DNA from: Natronorubrum thiooxidans
GTDB lineage: Archaea > Halobacteriota > Halobacteria > Halobacteriales > Natrialbaceae
Assembly (NCBI RefSeq): GCF_900156475.1
Contig: NZ_FTNR01000008.1
Coordinates: 62,001-126,000, forward strand
DNA: 64,000 bases
Direction of reading: 5' to 3'
Position numbers and translations under genes: made by a program. The notes under the pieces were generated by a model that was given only the letters and a program-made list of their open reading frames with translations, ran no database searches and had not been told where the DNA came from. Each line of letters opens with the position of its first letter. The stretch's first letter is position 1. Positions 13,974-28,307 of this stretch are shown here, piece by piece.

Positions 13974-14427
13974 AGCTACTGAATATTGACGACGGTATAT
14001 GATATTGTCGTTCGACCGTTCGACGATCGTCGTAATACTGTGAGAGAGCTGTGCAAAACGCGTTCTAGCTGCTGTCGGCTTCTATCGGGACGTGATCATC
14101 GGCTCTCTACTCGACAGGAAACACACCTTGTTGCTAATTAAATCAATTATTTTATTAATATCGTGGTGATGCCAATAACTGGTCGAGGTGTCGATAGCCC
14201 ACAACACCTCGGCCAGCGTTCCCCGCGAATCCGGCTGCCACGACCACCGGTTCGACCTGCTCCCGTCGAGGCGGTGGTCAATGGTAACACTCGTACCTGT
14301 CGCCGCCCGGCCTCGCTGGGACACCCGTTTTGAACGGTGGCGAAGCGACTTGCCGTGTCGCTGTTGCTCTCGAGGAACGGTATGTTCAGTTGACAGTACG
14401 TCTGCACGAAGAGCGATCGCAGTCGTT
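13974..14427. other. 454-bp intergenic region with hmgB promoter and AT-rich patch
   Basis: The hmgB TATA element (13996-14005) is at one end. An unusually AT-rich stretch lies at 14131-14161 (ctaattaaatc followed by attattttattaat). No open frame here has haloarchaeal composition: the longest minus-strand frame (14082-14324) is neither acidic nor recognisable. No tRNA or hairpin was found. Confidence 0.5.
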
Positions 14428-15009
14428 TCAGTCGCTAATAAATTTGTTATCGCGCCAATTAACGCCGCCCTGACCGGAGTTGTGGTCTCGAGGCCCTTCG
14501 ACGACTTCGATGTCGGCCGGGCGAGCCTCGCCCTCGACGATGCGGGTTGCCTCGAGATCGCCGTCGCGTTCGGAGATTGCGGTCAGCGTCCCTTTTTCGG
14601 CGGTTTCGGCGATGCCACAGAGGACGAGGAACATCTGGTACTGGAGCAACGAGTTCTGGAGGACGGTTTCGCGGTCGCCTTTGAACGCCGCGAACTCGAC
14701 GAGTTCGGATTCAATCTCGTCTTCTTCCTCTTCGTCCCAGCGGAACGAGTTCCGCCGTTCGTCAGGGTCTTCCTCGTAGACCCGATTTTCCGTGATGCTG
14801 GCTTTGAGCTGGGCGGTCGGGGTGTACTTGCTTACCGACTCGTCTTCAGCAACGGCTTTGAGGATGAGTGTGTTGTTCCGCCGCGTAATCTCTACGTCGG
14901 TGACGCCATCCGGAAACGTCGCCTCGTCGATATGCGTGCGAAGGTCTTCGAGGGGCAGTTCAAGGGTCGAGTGCAGTCGATATACGTGTCTGGATTCCTC
15001 TGTTGACAT
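14428..15009 (-). CDS. Conserved haloarchaeal protein of unknown function (DUF7110-like)
   Basis: A 193-residue soluble acidic protein. The N-terminal region (RLHSTLELPLEDLRTHIDEATFP) looks like a ferredoxin-like alpha/beta fold, with NNTLILKAVAED as a strand pair. A strongly acidic linker (WDEEEEDEIESE) and a helical segment LLQYQMFLVLCGIAE follow. No enzyme motif is seen. I recall similar haloarchaeal proteins under DUF7110, but that name is from memory. It is transcribed alone, downstream of a spacer shared with the glutaredoxin gene. Confidence 0.7.
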   Translation of the reverse strand: MSTEESRHVYRLHSTLELPLEDLRTHIDEATFPDGVTDVEITRRNNTLILKAVAEDESVSKYTPTAQLKASITENRVYEEDPDERRNSFRWDEEEEDEIESELVEFAAFKGDRETVLQNSLLQYQMFLVLCGIAETAEKGTLTAISERDGDLEATRIVEGEARPADIEVVEGPRDHNSGQGGVNWRDNKFISD

Positions 15010-20512: not shown

Positions 20513-23500
20513 CTATGACGATCCCGCAATCAGCCCCATCGGGTCAGTGCCCGTCCCCGAACCGTCGGGAGACGGTGACTCGGGACCCGCTGGTTCGTCG
20601 AACGGATCATCATCGAACGGAGCCTCGTCGAACGGATCATCAGCCGGTTCGTCTTCCGGCGGCTCGTCGAACGGATCCTCGTCGACCGGCTCATCCGCCG
20701 GTTCCGCTTCGGATGGGCCCTCGACCGTCACCGCCGTCTCGGCGAGTTCGTCCGCGCTCGAGACGCTGACTGGGTAGTCGCCGGGCTCGAGCGCGTCGGT
20801 ATCCGCAGTCAGCGTCAGCACTTCCGACGCGCCGGGCTCGAGCGAAACCGGTACGGTATCGACGACGGCGTCACCAACGGCCAGTTCGATGTCCTGGGTT
20901 CCTGCCTCGCCACCGACGTTTTCGACATCGACGTCCACCTCGAGCGGCGTTCCCTGTTCGAGGGGAGCGTTCGTGCCCGTGATCGAGACGGCGAACTCGG
21001 CTGGCTCGCTTGGCGTGAGTTCACCAGCCGTCGCCGTCGCGGCGGGTTCGACCGCGTCTGCGTCGTAGTCGTATCTGCTCAGATCGACCGCCCAGACGAG
21101 CCGTTCGTCGTCGGTTTCGGGCGTCCATTCGACGGTGAACGTGTTCGTCCCGGCCTCGAGTTCGTCGACTGGCTCGTCCGCAGTTGTCCCCTCGACGAAC
21201 TCGCTGTCGACAACCAGCGCCGCGTCGTTCGGGTTCTCGTAGCCGAATGTGACCGCGATACCGTCCTCGGTCGGTGTCGTCTCCTCGACGCCGAGTTCGG
21301 GAAGTTCGGGACGGACCTCAGCGATACACTCGCTGGCGTCGGGGTTCGGATAATCCATCTCGCCCGGCGTCGCATCGGGCGAGGCAAAGCCGGTGATCGC
21401 AGCGCCGAAGTCGCCCTCGGGAACGGTGACGGTCGCGCCGGCGTCGGTTTCGGTGACGGTGAACTCGTCGCCGGGCTCGTAGGTGATCGTCCCCTCGAAC
21501 GGCGCGGCGACGTCCTCGCCAACCGTGATCGCGTACTCGCCCATCGTGTTGCCGAAGCCGCCCGATTCGTAGAACCCGGTGGCGGCGATGATCGTCTCGC
21601 CGTCCTCGAACGAGCCCGTCACCTCGGCCTGTTGGCAGGTGACGAACTCGACGGCGAACGGCTCTGGTTCGAGGTCGACCGTGTACTCGAGCGAGTCGAT
21701 CGCGAGCTGCTCACCGTCCTCGTCGACAACGGCCACTTCAAGCGTTGCATCGTCCTCGAGTGGGGGATCGAGAGTGAGTGTCTCGGATTCGGTAGTTTCG
21801 CCGGCTGGGAACGGCTCACTTTCGGCGAGCTGCTCGCCGTCCTCGTCGGTGACGGTGAGTGCGTACTCGACCGATGCGTTCGCTTCCGCGACGGTCAGTG
21901 TCTCACCGTCGCCCGTCTGATCGCTCACCTCGAGGATCGCTTCCGGCTCGGGTTCGTCCTCAAGGGTATACTCGATCGTCTCGGTCGCGAGTTCCTCGCC
22001 ATCTGGTCCCACGATAGCGACGTCGACAGTCGTGGACGTCTCGAGCGATGGCTCGAGAGCGAGTTCTAGTTCGGTGACGGTCTCCTCGGCTCCGAACGTA
22101 TCGCTCTCGGCCCCGGTCTCGTCGGCTGCAGCCGTGACAGTGTACTCGACATCGGCCCTCGCTTCGTCCACCACGAGCGTCTCGCCGTCACCCTCCTGGT
22201 CGCTCACTGAGAGTGTCGCTTCCGGCTCAGGTTCGTCGGGCTCGTCGATCTCGCCGACGGTCACGAGCGCCGTATCGAGAATCGGCGCACCGCCGGGGGT
22301 GACGTACGGTTCATCTTCCGCGCCGTCCGTCTCCGCGTACTGGAACGTCTCGTCGTCGTTCGTATCGTGGTGAACCACCGCCACGAGGGGCTGCTCGCCC
22401 TCGAGTGACTCCTCGAGGTCGATCTCGACCTCACTGTGCGCGCCGGGCTCGAGATAGGCCGACGACCCGAGCACGCCAGCCGGATCGGCGACGCGTTCAC
22501 CGTCGTAGATTGCCACGAAGCCGCCTTCCGAGAGCTCGACGCTGTCGACGACGACGCTGTCGCCGTCACGCTCCTGCTCGGCGAACGTGATCGTCGCCTC
22601 ACCCTCGAGGTCGTCGATCGCTTCGACGCGCTGGGTGAGTTCGCCCTCGAGGAACTGACTGAGCTCGACGTCGCCGTCGACACCGTCCTCGACCGCGAAG
22701 GCCGTGGCATCGGCTGCGGTCTCCGACGTGAGGGTTTGTAGTTGCGTGATCGAGATCTGTTGGAACTGCACTGCTCGAGCCGTCTCCTGACAAGCCCCGC
22801 GGGCGGCAAGCTGAAGTTGTTCGGCGGTCGCCTCCTGAGATTGTTCCAGCACACCGCTTGCGCTGCCGGCTGCGAGCACCTGCACCTGCGTGACGTCGAT
22901 GACCTGTTTCTGGATCACAGCCCCCTCGCCGGCACCGAACGAAGCGGCCTGAATCTGTTCGACGTTGACGACCTGTTGCTGGATCGCCGACTCAATTGCT
23001 CCCTGTGACGCACCGACGGCAGCGTACTGGATCTGTGTGATCGATATCTCCTGTTGTTGGACGAGTACGCCACCGGCCGCCCCGTCAGCCGCGGCCTGAA
23101 TCTGCTCGATAGTCGCGTCCTGACTCTGCGTTATCGACCCCTTGGCCGCACCGAAGGATGCCGCCTGAATCTGTGTGATCGAGATCCGCTGGACCTGTTC
23201 GATACTGATCGATTGGACCTGTATCAACGCTCCCTTGCTCGCCCCGCGTGCGGCGGCCTGTGTCTGCTCGACTGTCACCGTCTGTTGCTGGACGAGCGCG
23301 CCCTTTGCAGCCCCAGTTGCGGCCTTCTGAATCTGTTTGATCGTCGCCCGCTGGTACTGTTCGACCTCGACGCGCTGTTCTTGCTCGAGGACGAGTTCGC
23401 TGCTTCCCTCGAGCGCGCCCGCGGATGAACCTGCGGCCGCGTTTTGGACGTGCTCTAACGTGACTTGCTGGCGCTGTTCAACCGTAATCTGCTGATACTG

Positions 23501-24250
23501 CTCGAGCACGCCGTAGGCCGCGCCCTGTGCGGCCTCCTGAATCTTCGGCGCGTGCGTGATGTCTTTGTCACCGGCCTCACTCGCCGCCCCGGCAGCGGCC
23601 CCGCGAGCGGCGACCTGAATCTGCTCGACGGTCACGCGCTGTTCTTGGGCAATTGCGCCGTGTGCGGCCCCCCACGTCGCACTCTGCATCTGACTCGCCG
23701 AAACCGTCTGGAACTGCGCGAGTGCGCCGTCGGTTGCCCCGCTGACGGCGAACTGGACCTGCTCGACGTCGACCTGCTGGGCTTGCATGAGCGAGCCGTG
23801 AGTAGCCCCCTTCGTCGCCTCCTGGACCTGCTCGACGTCGGCTTGCTGGTGTTGGGCGACTGACTCGCGTGCGCCCTCGAGCGCCGCCTCACGCTGCTCC
23901 TGGCTCACCTCGACACCCTGTGATTGTGCGAGTTCGATCCCCTCGTCGACGCCGTCCTCGACAGCATCATTCTGCTGGACCGACAACGATGGCTGTGCGT
24001 CGCTGTTGGTCGCATCCAACTCCGCCGTCGACTCCATCGATACCAACTCGAGGTCGCTGACAGCGTCAGCGTCGCTTGCAGTACCGATCGCAGTCTGCGT
24101 GCCGCCGGCGGCTGTCGCCTCGCCGGTTGCACCGTCTGCAGTTTCACCGTCGAGCACGCCGCTTCCCCCGCCGAGTATCGGCAACGCCAGCACGCTCGTC
24201 ACCAGCAACGCGGCGACGAGCGCCACGGCCACCGCTCCTCGTCTGGTCAT
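20513..24250 (-). CDS. Large exported repeat protein with Q-patterned 23-residue array, DUF7282-like, Ig-like and CARDB-like domains
   Basis: A 1245-residue protein. Residues 1-25 are a signal peptide or N-terminal anchor (RRGAVAVALVAALLVTSVLAL). About residues 141-502 are an array of 23-residue units of form Q-h-Q-x-A-A-x-G-A-x-x-G-A-h-x-Q-x-Q-x-h-x-h-E/T, with extra 8-residue half-units (QRQQVTLE, QYQRATIK, QVQRISIT). About 540-650 is a DUF7282-like beta domain (LVAVVHHDTNDDETFQY). Two similar Ig-like domains of about 95 residues follow, beginning ATLSVSDQEGDGETL and AILEVSDQTGDGETL. A CARDB-like domain (DVENVGGEAG) precedes a Pro/Asp/Glu tail. No PGF-CTERM sorting signal or C-terminal helix is present. 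A surface or extracellular structural role is inferred. I do not know this architecture. Confidence 0.8.
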   Translation of the reverse strand: MTRRGAVAVALVAALLVTSVLALPILGGGSGVLDGETADGATGEATAAGGTQTAIGTASDADAVSDLELVSMESTAELDATNSDAQPSLSVQQNDAVEDGVDEGIELAQSQGVEVSQEQREAALEGARESVAQHQQADVEQVQEATKGATHGSLMQAQQVDVEQVQFAVSGATDGALAQFQTVSASQMQSATWGAAHGAIAQEQRVTVEQIQVAARGAAAGAASEAGDKDITHAPKIQEAAQGAAYGVLEQYQQITVEQRQQVTLEHVQNAAAGSSAGALEGSSELVLEQEQRVEVEQYQRATIKQIQKAATGAAKGALVQQQTVTVEQTQAAARGASKGALIQVQSISIEQVQRISITQIQAASFGAAKGSITQSQDATIEQIQAAADGAAGGVLVQQQEISITQIQYAAVGASQGAIESAIQQQVVNVEQIQAASFGAGEGAVIQKQVIDVTQVQVLAAGSASGVLEQSQEATAEQLQLAARGACQETARAVQFQQISITQLQTLTSETAADATAFAVEDGVDGDVELSQFLEGELTQRVEAIDDLEGEATITFAEQERDGDSVVVDSVELSEGGFVAIYDGERVADPAGVLGSSAYLEPGAHSEVEIDLEESLEGEQPLVAVVHHDTNDDETFQYAETDGAEDEPYVTPGGAPILDTALVTVGEIDEPDEPEPEATLSVSDQEGDGETLVVDEARADVEYTVTAAADETGAESDTFGAEETVTELELALEPSLETSTTVDVAIVGPDGEELATETIEYTLEDEPEPEAILEVSDQTGDGETLTVAEANASVEYALTVTDEDGEQLAESEPFPAGETTESETLTLDPPLEDDATLEVAVVDEDGEQLAIDSLEYTVDLEPEPFAVEFVTCQQAEVTGSFEDGETIIAATGFYESGGFGNTMGEYAITVGEDVAAPFEGTITYEPGDEFTVTETDAGATVTVPEGDFGAAITGFASPDATPGEMDYPNPDASECIAEVRPELPELGVEETTPTEDGIAVTFGYENPNDAALVVDSEFVEGTTADEPVDELEAGTNTFTVEWTPETDDERLVWAVDLSRYDYDADAVEPAATATAGELTPSEPAEFAVSITGTNAPLEQGTPLEVDVDVENVGGEAGTQDIELAVGDAVVDTVPVSLEPGASEVLTLTADTDALEPGDYPVSVSSADELAETAVTVEGPSEAEPADEPVDEDPFDEPPEDEPADDPFDEAPFDDDPFDEPAGPESPSPDGSGTGTDPMGLIAGSS
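22745..23830 (-). repeat. Coding repeat array, about 15 units of 69 bp plus 24-bp half-units
   Basis: This DNA encodes the Q-patterned part of the large exported protein. Units are 69 bp with 24-bp insertions that keep frame, for 362 codons in all. Protein units are well conserved while the DNA has drifted, so the array is old rather than a fresh tandem expansion. Confidence 0.75.
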
Positions 24251-24694: not shown

Positions 24695-25282
24695 ATGGCA
24701 ACAGAACAAAATTCGGTGGATCTCGTCGATGGCGAGATCGTTCGTCAGTTCGCTCGGGCAGCCCTGCTTGCCGCACTGCTCGGCGCGGCAGCGCCCGTCT
24801 CGATCCCGATCCCGCTCTCGCCGGTACCGATCACCTTACAGGTACTGTTCGTCTTCCTCGCCGGCCTCGTCCTGGGGCCGGTGTGGGGACCGACCTCGAT
24901 TCTCCTCTATCTCGCCGCGGGAGCCATCGGGCTACCCGTCTTCTCGGGGATGAGTGCGGGACTCGGCGTGCTGGTCGGTAACACGGCCGGCTACCTCTGG
25001 GCGTACCCGCTCGCTGCGGGCCTGATCGGGCTCATGGTCCATGGGGACACCGACCTTCGGGATCCCGCCGACGTTTCGCTCCCGGTCGTCATCGTCGCGC
25101 TCGTCGCCGGAACGATTCTCATCTACGGCATGGGCACCGGCTACATGGCCTGGGCCCTCGAGCTCGGGATGTGGGAAGCGATTTCAATCGGCGCACTGTT
25201 GTTTATCCCCGGCGAACTGCTCAAGATCGCCGCGGCGATCGCGATCGTCAAAAGCGGCCGTATCGCACCGATCCAGTCGTGA
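24695..25282 (+). CDS. bioY: Biotin ECF transporter substrate-binding subunit BioY
   Basis: A 195-residue membrane protein with six helices. Characteristic blocks are APVSIPIPLSPVPITLQVLFVFLAG near residues 32-56, YLAAGAIGLPVFSG, and GYLWAYPLAAGLIG. BioY is the S component that captures biotin. The gene leads bioY-bioM-bioN with 28 and 15 bp gaps, the full ECF module. The ATG at 24695 lies just after a BirA-type operator, so the operon is probably repressed by biotin through an archaeal BirA with a helix-turn-helix domain (not in this window). High confidence. Confidence 0.95.
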   Translation: MATEQNSVDLVDGEIVRQFARAALLAALLGAAAPVSIPIPLSPVPITLQVLFVFLAGLVLGPVWGPTSILLYLAAGAIGLPVFSGMSAGLGVLVGNTAGYLWAYPLAAGLIGLMVHGDTDLRDPADVSLPVVIVALVAGTILIYGMGTGYMAWALELGMWEAISIGALLFIPGELLKIAAAIAIVKSGRIAPIQS

Positions 25283-25310
25283 GCCGCCGACATTTCATGA
25301 CCGCGACGAT

Positions 25311-26015
25311 ATGATTGCGTTTCGCTCCGTCTCGTACGCGTTCGACGACGTTCTTGTCCTCGAGGACGTCTCGCTCTCGATCGACGACGGCGAGTTCGTT
25401 CTCTTTGCGGGGGCCAACGGCAGCGGGAAGACGACGCTGTTGCGCCACTGCAATGGCCTCCTCGAGCCCGATTCCGGCGAGGTCCTCGTCAACGGCACGC
25501 CCGTCGCGGACGACCTGATCGCCGCCCGGTCGGCCGTCGGCATGGTCTTTCAACACCCACGCGACCAGTTCGTCGCTGCAACGGTCGGTGCCGACGTCGC
25601 CTTCGGGCCCGAGAACCTCGGCCTCACACGTGAGGAGATCGATCGACGGGTCGAGGCCGCCCTCGAGGCCGTCAACATGACCGGTCGCGACGATGAGCGC
25701 ATCGACGCGCTCTCGGGGGGCGAACAGTCCCGCGTGGCCATCGCGGGCGCGCTTGCGATGGATCCGAGCCATCTCGTGCTCGACGAACCCTTTACTGGGC
25801 TCGACGATCCTGCCCGCCGGTCCGTTCTCGAGCGCCTCGAGTCGCTCGCCGCCGACGGCACCGGCATCTTGCTGACGACCCACGATCTCCGGGATGTCGT
25901 CGGCCTCGCCGACCGCATCGTCGCCATGAAACACGGCCAGGTCGTGATCGACGACCCGCCCGAACGTGCACTCGAGGCGCTTTCGGGACTCGAGGTTCGC
26001 ATCCCCGACACCTGA
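25311..26015 (+). CDS. bioM: Biotin ECF transporter ATP-binding subunit BioM
   Basis: A 234-residue ABC ATPase. Walker A is GANGSGKTT at residues 34-42. The Q-loop is in MVFQHPRDQF, the signature is LSGGEQSRVAIAGAL, Walker B is HLVLDEPF, and the H-loop is LLTTHD. It is of the ECF A-component type (QHPRDQFVAATVGADVAFGPENLG). It energises biotin uptake with BioY and BioN. Start ATG 25311 fits the family; the upstream part of the frame overlaps bioY and is not used. Sole ATPase of the operon, so it likely forms a homodimer. Confidence 0.95.
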   Translation: MIAFRSVSYAFDDVLVLEDVSLSIDDGEFVLFAGANGSGKTTLLRHCNGLLEPDSGEVLVNGTPVADDLIAARSAVGMVFQHPRDQFVAATVGADVAFGPENLGLTREEIDRRVEAALEAVNMTGRDDERIDALSGGEQSRVAIAGALAMDPSHLVLDEPFTGLDDPARRSVLERLESLAADGTGILLTTHDLRDVVGLADRIVAMKHGQVVIDDPPERALEALSGLEVRIPDT

Positions 26016-26030
26016 CGGAGACCACCGACG

Positions 26031-26735
26031 ATGCTCACCTACGCCCCCGACGACACGCTCGCCCACCGGCTCGATCCCCGCACGAAGCTGGTCGTCCAGA
26101 TCGGCTTCGCGACGACGGCGCTGGCCCACACCAGCCCACAAGCGTTACTCGCCCTCTCCGTCGTGGCCGGGCTGATCCTGCTCGCCGCTCGCGTGGCGCT
26201 GCTCGAGGCACTGTACGCCTACCGATTCGCACTCGTTATCCTCGCTATCGCGCCGCTGATTGCGGGGTTGACACTCGGCGCACCGTGGTTCGATCTCACC
26301 GACGCCGGGGACTCCGGGCGGGCGAGCTACCGGGTCTTGCTCATCTTACTCGTCAGTGCGGCGTACGTCCGTTCGACGCCAGTGCGTGCGTCTCGAGCCG
26401 CGATCCAGCGGACGGTTCCCGGCAAACCAGGCCAAGTCCTCGGCATCGGCGTCGCGCTCGTCTTCCGGTTCCTGCCGGTCTTGCAGGCCGATTTCCGGAC
26501 GATCCGCGACGCGATGGCTGCTAGGCTGGGCGACGAGCGAGGCGTCATCGAGCGCGCCAGCACGCTCTCGCTGCTCGCGCTCTCGCGGGCGTTCGACCGG
26601 GCCGATCGACTCGCACTCGCTTTGCAGGCACGCTGTTTCGCCTGGAACCCGACGCTGCCCGCGCTGGCGTTTTCGCGGGCCGATTACCCCGTGCTCGCGG
26701 GGGCCGTCGTGCTCGCGCTCACGGCGTTCCTCTGA
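26031..26735 (+). CDS. bioN: Biotin ECF transporter transmembrane subunit BioN
   Basis: A 234-residue T component. The N-terminal HRLDPRTKLVVQIGFA is the family start. Four to six helices follow, and the coupling region includes ALVFRFLPVLQADFRTIRDAMAAR and SRAFDRADRLALALQARCF with the A-R-G/A-R-C-like coupling helix that contacts BioM. It begins 15 bp after bioM and ends the operon. Located in the cell membrane. High confidence from position and motifs. Confidence 0.93.
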   Translation: MLTYAPDDTLAHRLDPRTKLVVQIGFATTALAHTSPQALLALSVVAGLILLAARVALLEALYAYRFALVILAIAPLIAGLTLGAPWFDLTDAGDSGRASYRVLLILLVSAAYVRSTPVRASRAAIQRTVPGKPGQVLGIGVALVFRFLPVLQADFRTIRDAMAARLGDERGVIERASTLSLLALSRAFDRADRLALALQARCFAWNPTLPALAFSRADYPVLAGAVVLALTAFL

Positions 26736-26751
26736 CCATCCGGCCACCGGC

Positions 26752-28167
26752 TCACCGCAACTGTCCCCCGAGCACCTTCGCGGCGACGAGCACCGGATCC
26801 CACGTCGTGTTAAACGGCGGCGCGTACGCGAGGTCGTAGTTCTCGAGTTCCAAGACTGTTGTTTCCTCCATGAGCGCGCCGACGAGAGCGTGGCTACGGT
26901 GGACGGCCCCTTCGCCGTACTCGCTGACGAGACTCCCGCCGAGGACACGCCCGGAGTCACGGTCGGCGGTCAGCGTGATCGTGATATCGCTCCCGTCGGG
27001 GTAGTAGCCTGCGCGTGATTTCGCCGTCACCGTCTTCCTGACCGGGTCGAACCCGGCCGCACGCGCGTCGTCGTGGTCGAGAACCCCGGTTCGGGCCGCC
27101 TCGACGTCGAACGCCTTGACCGCCGCCGTCCCCGCGACGCCGCCGCCTTCGGTCGGCCGGCCGCTGACGGTCTGGCCGACCGCGCGGCCGTGGCGGTTGG
27201 CGGTCAGCGCCAGCGGCACGTGCACCGACTCGCCCGTCACGACGTGTGTCGCTTCAGCTCAGTCGCCCGCGGCGTAGACGTCCGGCGCGCTCGTCTCGCG
27301 ATAGGCATCGGTCGCGATCGCGCCCGTCTCACCGATCTCGATGCCGGCATTTTCGGCGAGGCCCGTTCGCGGTCGAACCCCCGTCCCGAGCAACACCATC
27401 TCGACCGCGACCCGGTCGTCGGCCGTGACGACAGCCTCGACCGCCTCCCCACCGGCGAGTTCCTCGACCGACGCATTGAGATGGTCCGCGACATCTTCGT
27501 CGCGGAGGTGGTCGGCGACGTGCTCGCTCGTCTCCTCGCTAAAGCCTTTCAGCAGGCGGTCGCCGCGCTGGAACAGATTGACCTCGAACCCGTTCGCCGC
27601 CAGCGCTTCGGCCATCTCGAGTCCGATGTACCCACCCCCGACGACGCCGACCGGGCCGGTACAGTCCTCGAGGAACCGACAGGCTGGCCCGCGATCCGGC
27701 TGCTGGAACGACTCCTCGCTGCGCGCTCGAGCGACGTACTCCCGAAGTTCCTTCCCGTCGCTCATCGAGCCGAGGGTGTAGACACCCTCCCGGTCGGTGC
27801 CGTCGATCTCCGGCACGACCGCCGCCGCGCCGGTTGCGATCAGCAGGTGGTCGTACGACTGGACGACCGTCTCCGACCCCGATTCGGCGGTGACCGTCCG
27901 GTCGTCTGGATCGATCGCGACCACTTCGTGACCCGTTCGGAGGTCGATGTCGCGTTCCTCCCGAAACTCCTCGGGTGTGACCGAGACCAGCGCCTCGAGC
28001 GACTGAATCTCGCCTTTGATGTAGTAGGGCAGCCCGCAGGCTCCATACGAGACCCACTCTCCTTTCTCGAAGACAACGACCTCGAGGTCGGGATCGTCCC
28101 GCTTTGCTTTGCTCGCCGCAGACATACCGGCTGCATCGCCACCGACGACGACGAAGGTGTCCGTCAT
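26752..28167 (-). pseudogene. CoA-disulfide reductase / NADH oxidase-like flavoprotein gene with in-frame TGA
   Basis: Two same-frame segments, 27262-28167 (302 codons) and 26752-27258, form one 471-codon gene of the pyridine nucleotide-disulfide reductase family. Visible are the FAD fold VVVGGDAAGMSAAS, the redox motif SYGACGLPYYI with the CoADR-type single Cys, the NAD(P)H fold VGVVGGGYIGLEMAEA, the FAD motif DVYAAGD, and dimer-domain blocks such as VPLALTANRHGRAVGQTV. The stop is a TGA at 27259-27261 exactly where relatives have Cys in GDCAE. Both halves keep acidic haloarchaeal composition and no other lesion is seen, so the mutation is recent or a read error. The homologous enzyme reduces CoA disulfide or oxygen. 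Confidence 0.85.
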
Positions 28168-28307
28168 ACCAACTCCTGTGTCCGGCAGGGTTGTATACTG
28201 TTGGCCACCAGTGATGCTGCCGGACAGTGAGCAGTCGGTCGCAAACGGTCGTCCGGTCTGCTGTCAGTCAGTGCCGGCGCGACCGTGAACGATCTTATCA
28301 TTTGAAT

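Follow-up and report, generated by a model that had tools for sequence, protein, structure and literature searches.

The window, by which we mean the whole stretch of 64,000 nucleotides analysed here, carries on its reverse strand (20513..24250) a complete gene with an ATG start for a repeat protein of 1245 residues that is predicted to be exported; position, strand and frame had all been given correctly in the first-pass annotation. All parts of the protein described below are encoded on this same strand. Residues 1–23 (24182..24250) comprise a hydrophobic core followed by ALPxLGG, with a Kyte–Doolittle 19-residue maximum of 2.65 at residue 7, and would serve as a signal peptide or as an uncleaved N-terminal anchor. 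They are followed by a low-complexity linker (residues 24–96; 23963..24181), the length of which differs among species in the orthologue alignment, and by the repeat array proper, 16 units spanning residues 109–517 (22700..23926) as delimited by anchors, autocorrelation and a unit hidden Markov model (HMM).

The part downstream of the array is modular. A DUF7282 domain (PF23951) occupies residues 552–664 (22259..22597), with a Pfam E-value of 4.7e-37 and 127 bits against a cut-off of 27, and two Ig-like copies that are 54% identical follow at about residues 672–862 (21665..22237), so that the earlier reading of a DUF7282-like domain with a duplicated Ig-like pair was borne out; the second copy itself weakly matches DUF7282. 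Residues 866–981 (21308..21655) form a two-cysteine domain that is also present in other exported proteins of the genome. The CARDB-like domain that had been proposed is present at residues 1087–1171 (20738..20992), yet it is borderline: PF07705 was matched with the C-terminal part alone at E 1.2e-4 and 22.7 bits, exactly the curated gathering cut-off of 22.7, and was absent from the Pfam scan of the full-length protein. In the partner-domain scan that included CARDB, two of the four query sequences were shortened and differed from the originals in a few letters at the ends. The protein ends in an acidic proline-rich tail with DPFDEP-type repeats (20513..20698), read from sequence and hydropathy as having no membrane anchor. 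Within it, a 15-base tandem repeat at 20598–20642 encodes acidic DPFDE-type units, and the length and repeats of the tail differ strongly between species.

Grammar of the repeat and its likely secondary structure

The array, rich in Gln, Ala and Gly, combines an 8-mer (QxQxVxVE) with a 15-mer (QhQxAAxGAxxGAhx). There are 32 QxQ anchors in residues 85–530, and 26 of the 31 distances from one anchor to the next are exactly 8 or 15, as compared with a mean of 0.47 and a maximum of 4 in 5000 residue shuffles. Residue autocorrelation peaks at lags 23 (z 12), 31, which equals 23+8 (z 7.2), and 8 (z 7.1). This periodicity is far above chance, and the spacings and the autocorrelation both support the original decomposition of 23 into 15 + 8. 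We counted 16 of the 15-mer parts, those at either end being degenerate, which makes the initial estimate of about 15 units a fair one, and an HMM of the 23-residue unit gave 18 matches in the protein, some of them partial. The three extra 8-residue pieces claimed at the outset are indeed there, as second members of the doublets QYQQITVE-QRQQVTLE (residues 251–266; 23453..23500), QEQRVEVE-QYQRATIK (residues 290–305; 23336..23383) and QVQSISIE-QVQRISIT (residues 344–359; 23174..23221), all delimited by the anchors and the orthologue alignment; these second 8-mers, whose first residues are 259, 298 and 352, are retained in the aligned orthologues. In the unit statistics of 113 arrays the Gln columns are 100% by construction, as the units were anchored on QxQ; Gln invariance was therefore taken from the unanchored alignment of 12 orthologues, in which the columns first described as fixed are indeed invariant. 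The protein contains 17 palindromic QxQxhxhxQxQ strands. This palindrome, together with the 46-residue super-period and the wide distribution described below, is new relative to the first-pass annotation.

Across the 113 arrays, the variable positions of the 8-mer are strictly 2, 4, 6 and 8, and positions 5 and 7 hold V/I/A, an alternation that reads as the signature of a strand. The 15-mer is most variable at positions 4, 7, 11 and 15, has Gly at 8 (99%) and 12 (100%), and would fit a helix with one exposed stripe. Covariation within the unit follows the same division: the 8-mer region shows an excess at separation 2 (permutation p 0.002–0.03 in three of four weightings), the 15-mer one at separations 3, 4 and 7 (p 0.008–0.05 in six of eight runs). 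As the species are related and the p-values uncorrected, we regard these results as moderate evidence for an extended 8-residue strand joined to an alpha-helix-like 15-residue part. The beta reading offered previously thus holds for the 8-mer, strand-like in both variability and covariation, but an all-strand unit is not established, because the covariation of the 15-mer is helix-like. Mean-field direct coupling analysis (DCA) of 46-residue windows was set aside because invariant columns dominated it.

In the array of L131 (genome G390) the second parts are mostly 18 residues long. A 305-residue Tat-type exported protein, L074 (a paralogue in G144), has in its C-terminal part isolated palindromic QSQSVDVSQSQ strands between Gly/Ser-rich stretches, that is, the 8-mer module without the 15-mer.

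Distribution, conservation and gene order

At E <= 1e-5 the array was found in 110 of the 391 genomes sampled from the class; among the genomes listed, it is carried by 84 of 101 of the window's own family and by 26 of the other 290, and it is absent from all listed genomes of two own-family genera. Named orthologues come from Natronorubrum, Haloterrigena, Natronolimnohabitans, Natronosalvus, Halostagnicola, Natribaculum and Natronococcus. In a phylum-level sample, the make-up of which is listed in part, 20 of 393 genomes matched, all from the same order. Two haloarchaeal plasmids carry relatives. A virus origin was considered and rejected, as no relative lay on any viral contig and there was no PHROG match.

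In the window's family the array aligns nearly gapless over about 460 residues. Equivalent units are 72% identical across species (47 arrays of equal unit count), as against 45% between different units within the window protein, a difference by which the array is best described as a fixed-size domain with individually maintained units and not as a recently expanding repeat. In other families the unit number varies, and there are 3-residue turn insertions and longer gaps. A second, apparently truncated array fragment, L066 (G223:C3:293000-295500), shares its contig with an intact array.

The orthologues lie at one locus in 11 named haloarchaeal genomes. In relatives with enough flanking sequence the gene sits between a divergent BioY-EcfA-EcfT operon and a convergent DUF5799 gene, with two named relatives, at whose loci DUF5799 was not seen, as exceptions. 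In the window the BioY, ECF ATPase and EcfT genes (24695–26735, forward strand) are divergent from the repeat gene. A functional tie to the biotin ECF transporter was rejected: BioY was not found near ten other-family arrays, and since the gene order is thus bound to the family we read it as inherited synteny. Two further forward-strand ORFs of the window, at 27073–28230 (385 residues) and 14188–15006 (272 residues), had no Pfam match at E<1.

Super-period and candidate folds

When unit order was permuted within arrays, unit i was found to resemble unit i+2, not i+1 or i+3. The effect is present in the window array alone (p = 0.017) and in 47 in-register arrays under synchronised permutation (z 3.45, p < 0.0005), in which lags 1, 3, 4 and 5 were not significant. 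Five other-family arrays behave likewise (L069, p <0.001; L061, 0.004; L058, 0.008; L060, 0.015; L131, 0.021), and in several more the lag-2 similarity falls short of significance. Unsynchronised permutations of 24 cluster representatives gave z 6.9–7.5, values that we do not use as the headline because they are inflated by the homology of the arrays. An inter-unit covariation matrix hinted at i,i+2 coupling, but phylogeny confounds it, so within-array permutation was used in its place. Given this resemblance, the structural period is probably two units, or 46 residues. An ancient duplication of unit pairs could partly account for it, but would be expected to raise lag 4 as well, which is not clearly raised.

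We tentatively favour an arrangement in which the chain forms a compact up-and-down sheet, its Ala/Gly turns falling first at one edge and then at the other, and in which this sheet serves as a scaffold of the envelope or matrix. Every unit would supply one extended strand, QxQxVxVxQxQ (unit residues 1–11 together with flanks), and then a short helical turn rich in Ala and Gly (about unit residues 12–21); with the chain running up and down, turns would alternate between the two edges, so that turns i and i+2 become neighbours, packed through the invariant glycines and small alanines, and the conserved face would carry ladders of Gln and Val. If each unit makes one turn, those of units i and i+2 on a shared edge would be ~9.6 A apart, which is a suitable spacing for Gly/Ala helices in close packing. 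Antiparallel pairing of the palindromic strand at k+k'=12 sets Gln opposite Gln and Val opposite Val, so that insertions of exactly 8 residues preserve the antiparallel register, and the 8-residue insert would be the quantum that holds Gln rows opposite Gln rows. We prefer the up-and-down sheet because it accounts jointly for the 46-residue super-period, the helix-like character of the turns and the insertion quantum of 8 residues.

The charge and register tests, which used unsynchronised permutation and are suggestive only, do not all point the same way. At positions 4 and 8 neighbours tend to opposite charges and lag-2 units to like charges, most plainly in L131, in which acidic QYQEVTVE and basic QRQRVTVR strands largely alternate. 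In these suggestive tests antiparallel pairing of neighbours is weakly favoured by identity (z 3.1 at k+k'=12, with other registers close), but charge complementarity favours 4-4/8-8 over 4-8, which counts against it.

A two-sheet beta-solenoid is possible, if rather unlikely. Here successive units would belong in turn to one and the other of two parallel sheets, each coil would take 46 residues, Gln/Val ladders would lie in the interior and GAxxGA would form the corners, in a curli- or RTX-like and possibly amyloid-like geometry. It would explain the fixed Gln columns and the in-register lag-2 similarity of strand-exposed positions, for which offset 0 is clearly best (z 3.9 in a test of the same suggestive kind), and the DSSP assignments of the low-confidence AlphaFold models show long strands broken at GAxxGA. 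However, the covariation of the 15-mer is helix-like, and a stacking distance of 4.8 A would be out of reach for helical corners; units at lag 2 would bring their like charges next to one another; and parallel strands have no need of a palindrome.

An alpha/alpha or parallel beta-alpha solenoid, in which helical 15-mers stack in the manner of HEAT, armadillo or leucine-rich repeats and the 8-mer serves as an inner strand or extended linker, seems unlikely. The covariation at separations 3, 4 and 7, an exposed stripe at 12, 15, 19 and 23 with small residues opposite, and a lag-2 similarity that suits a two-helix hairpin would all agree with it, and a man-made consensus weakly matches designed armadillo proteins (E 0.005). 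Yet the real protein lacks any PDB match at E<1, solved armadillo/HEAT members included, and its profile matches one chain only, at E 1.4; moreover, the 8-mer is strictly alternating with beta-branched residues and occurs doubled, 8-residue insertions would break the helical phase, and the armadillo period is 42, not 46. An extended or disordered low-complexity stalk with no fixed fold and mainly its composition conserved is very improbable, since the near-gapless register across genera, the far higher identity of orthologous units than of units within the protein, the position-specific covariation and the super-period outweigh the low AlphaFold confidence and the Gln/Ala/Gly-rich composition that would speak for it.

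Structure prediction, which the first-pass annotation had named as the check on a solenoid, was run twice with AlphaFold2, on residues 85–674 with 12 orthologues (mean pLDDT 41.8, pTM 0.36) and on residues 375–513 with unit-shifted rows (mean pLDDT 45.7, pTM 0.33), and at pLDDT values of about 42 and 46 the solenoid was not confirmed. DSSP of these low-confidence models assigns long strands, and the regular units contain no helix. Foldseek with the residues 85–674 model found no match at E <= 0.001, a result disregarded as the model was too uncertain; confidence is too low to support any topology. Neither of the outcomes named at the outset as contrary was seen: the periodicity is clear and no intracellular family was matched. 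The suggestion of a long fibre is not supported: 16 strands, if stacked at ~4.8 A, would make a compact domain of some tens of angstroms, and the array length is constant in the window's family, unlike that of an expandable fibre.

Relation to known systems and proposed role

The array matched no family in Pfam, NCBIfam, PHROG or PDB, in agreement with the initial view that no described family has this unit, and a literature search found no paper naming DUF7282 or describing the repeat. Leucine-rich, hexapeptide and RTX repeats are likewise tandem short units of similar length, but their consensus motifs are missing: no Pfam model matched the array, there were no matches to LxxLxLxxN or to GGxGxD beta-roll nonapeptides, and the array holds no run of consecutive [LIV]Gxxxx hexapeptides of the left-handed beta-helix. 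The curlin repeats of the functional amyloid CsgA resemble the array in being short, exported and fixed in their Gln columns; the array differs in having no asparagine ladder, a probable period of 46 and a Gly/Ala-rich 15-mer. The curli motif is S-x5-Q-x-G-x-G-N-x-A-x3-Q (PMC8151669), and even with its second Gly relaxed (S-x5-Q-x-G-x2-N-x-A-x3-Q) it occurs neither in the window protein nor in the 113 arrays; there was no curlin Pfam match. With the DUF7282 proteins of haloarchaea the window protein clearly has that domain in common, but the likeness is limited to residues 552–664, and other DUF7282 proteins of the genome lack the array. The array is a real, widespread and, by these searches, uncatalogued repeat domain, a new repeat family, whose novelty lies in the unit and possibly in the fold, not in the general kind, an exported repeat protein.

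Export, claimed from the start, is well supported by the hydropathy from which the signal was called and by a like pattern in orthologues: all full-length relatives read have an N-terminal hydrophobic segment, bar two with Tat-type RR signals. Anchoring differs between lineages. Five relatives share with PGF-CTERM-like haloarchaeal surface proteins a hydrophobic C-terminal segment followed by a short, mostly basic or polar tail, and relatives also share their Thr-rich stalks; unlike these, the window protein, by hydropathy, and its named Natrialbaceae orthologues have no C-terminal anchor. In relatives, the N-terminal module formed by the array is joined to a right-handed beta-helix, TSP3 plus CAP, NPND-type Ig-like domains or Thr-rich stalks. 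One of them, L064 (G266), combines the array with TSP3 repeats, Ig-like NPND repeats, a CAP domain and a C-terminal membrane anchor.

Because of export, the modular extracellular partners, the fixed size and the strong conservation, the gene product is probably an exported cell-envelope or extracellular-matrix scaffold, a biochemical role that we infer from sequence. The array would be a rigid module displaying the C-terminal domains on the cell exterior, and there these would bind partners, glycans or the S-layer. A bolder proposal, which we consider doubtful, is that of a new fold: a single-chain palindromic Gln/Val sheet with Ala/Gly helices at alternating edges and 8-residue quanta, serving as a modular extracellular scaffold and maybe polymerizing edge to edge in an amyloid-like manner.

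Over a quarter of the 391 sampled genomes of the class carry this repeat, for which we found no curated family, structure or literature, and its clear grammar, with pieces of 8 and 15 and a super-period of 46, makes the fold directly testable. The archaeal cell surface is poorly known, and the repeat would contribute to it a widespread structural module; should the Gln/Val sheet prove to self-assemble, the repeat would become a candidate for a functional amyloid in archaea.
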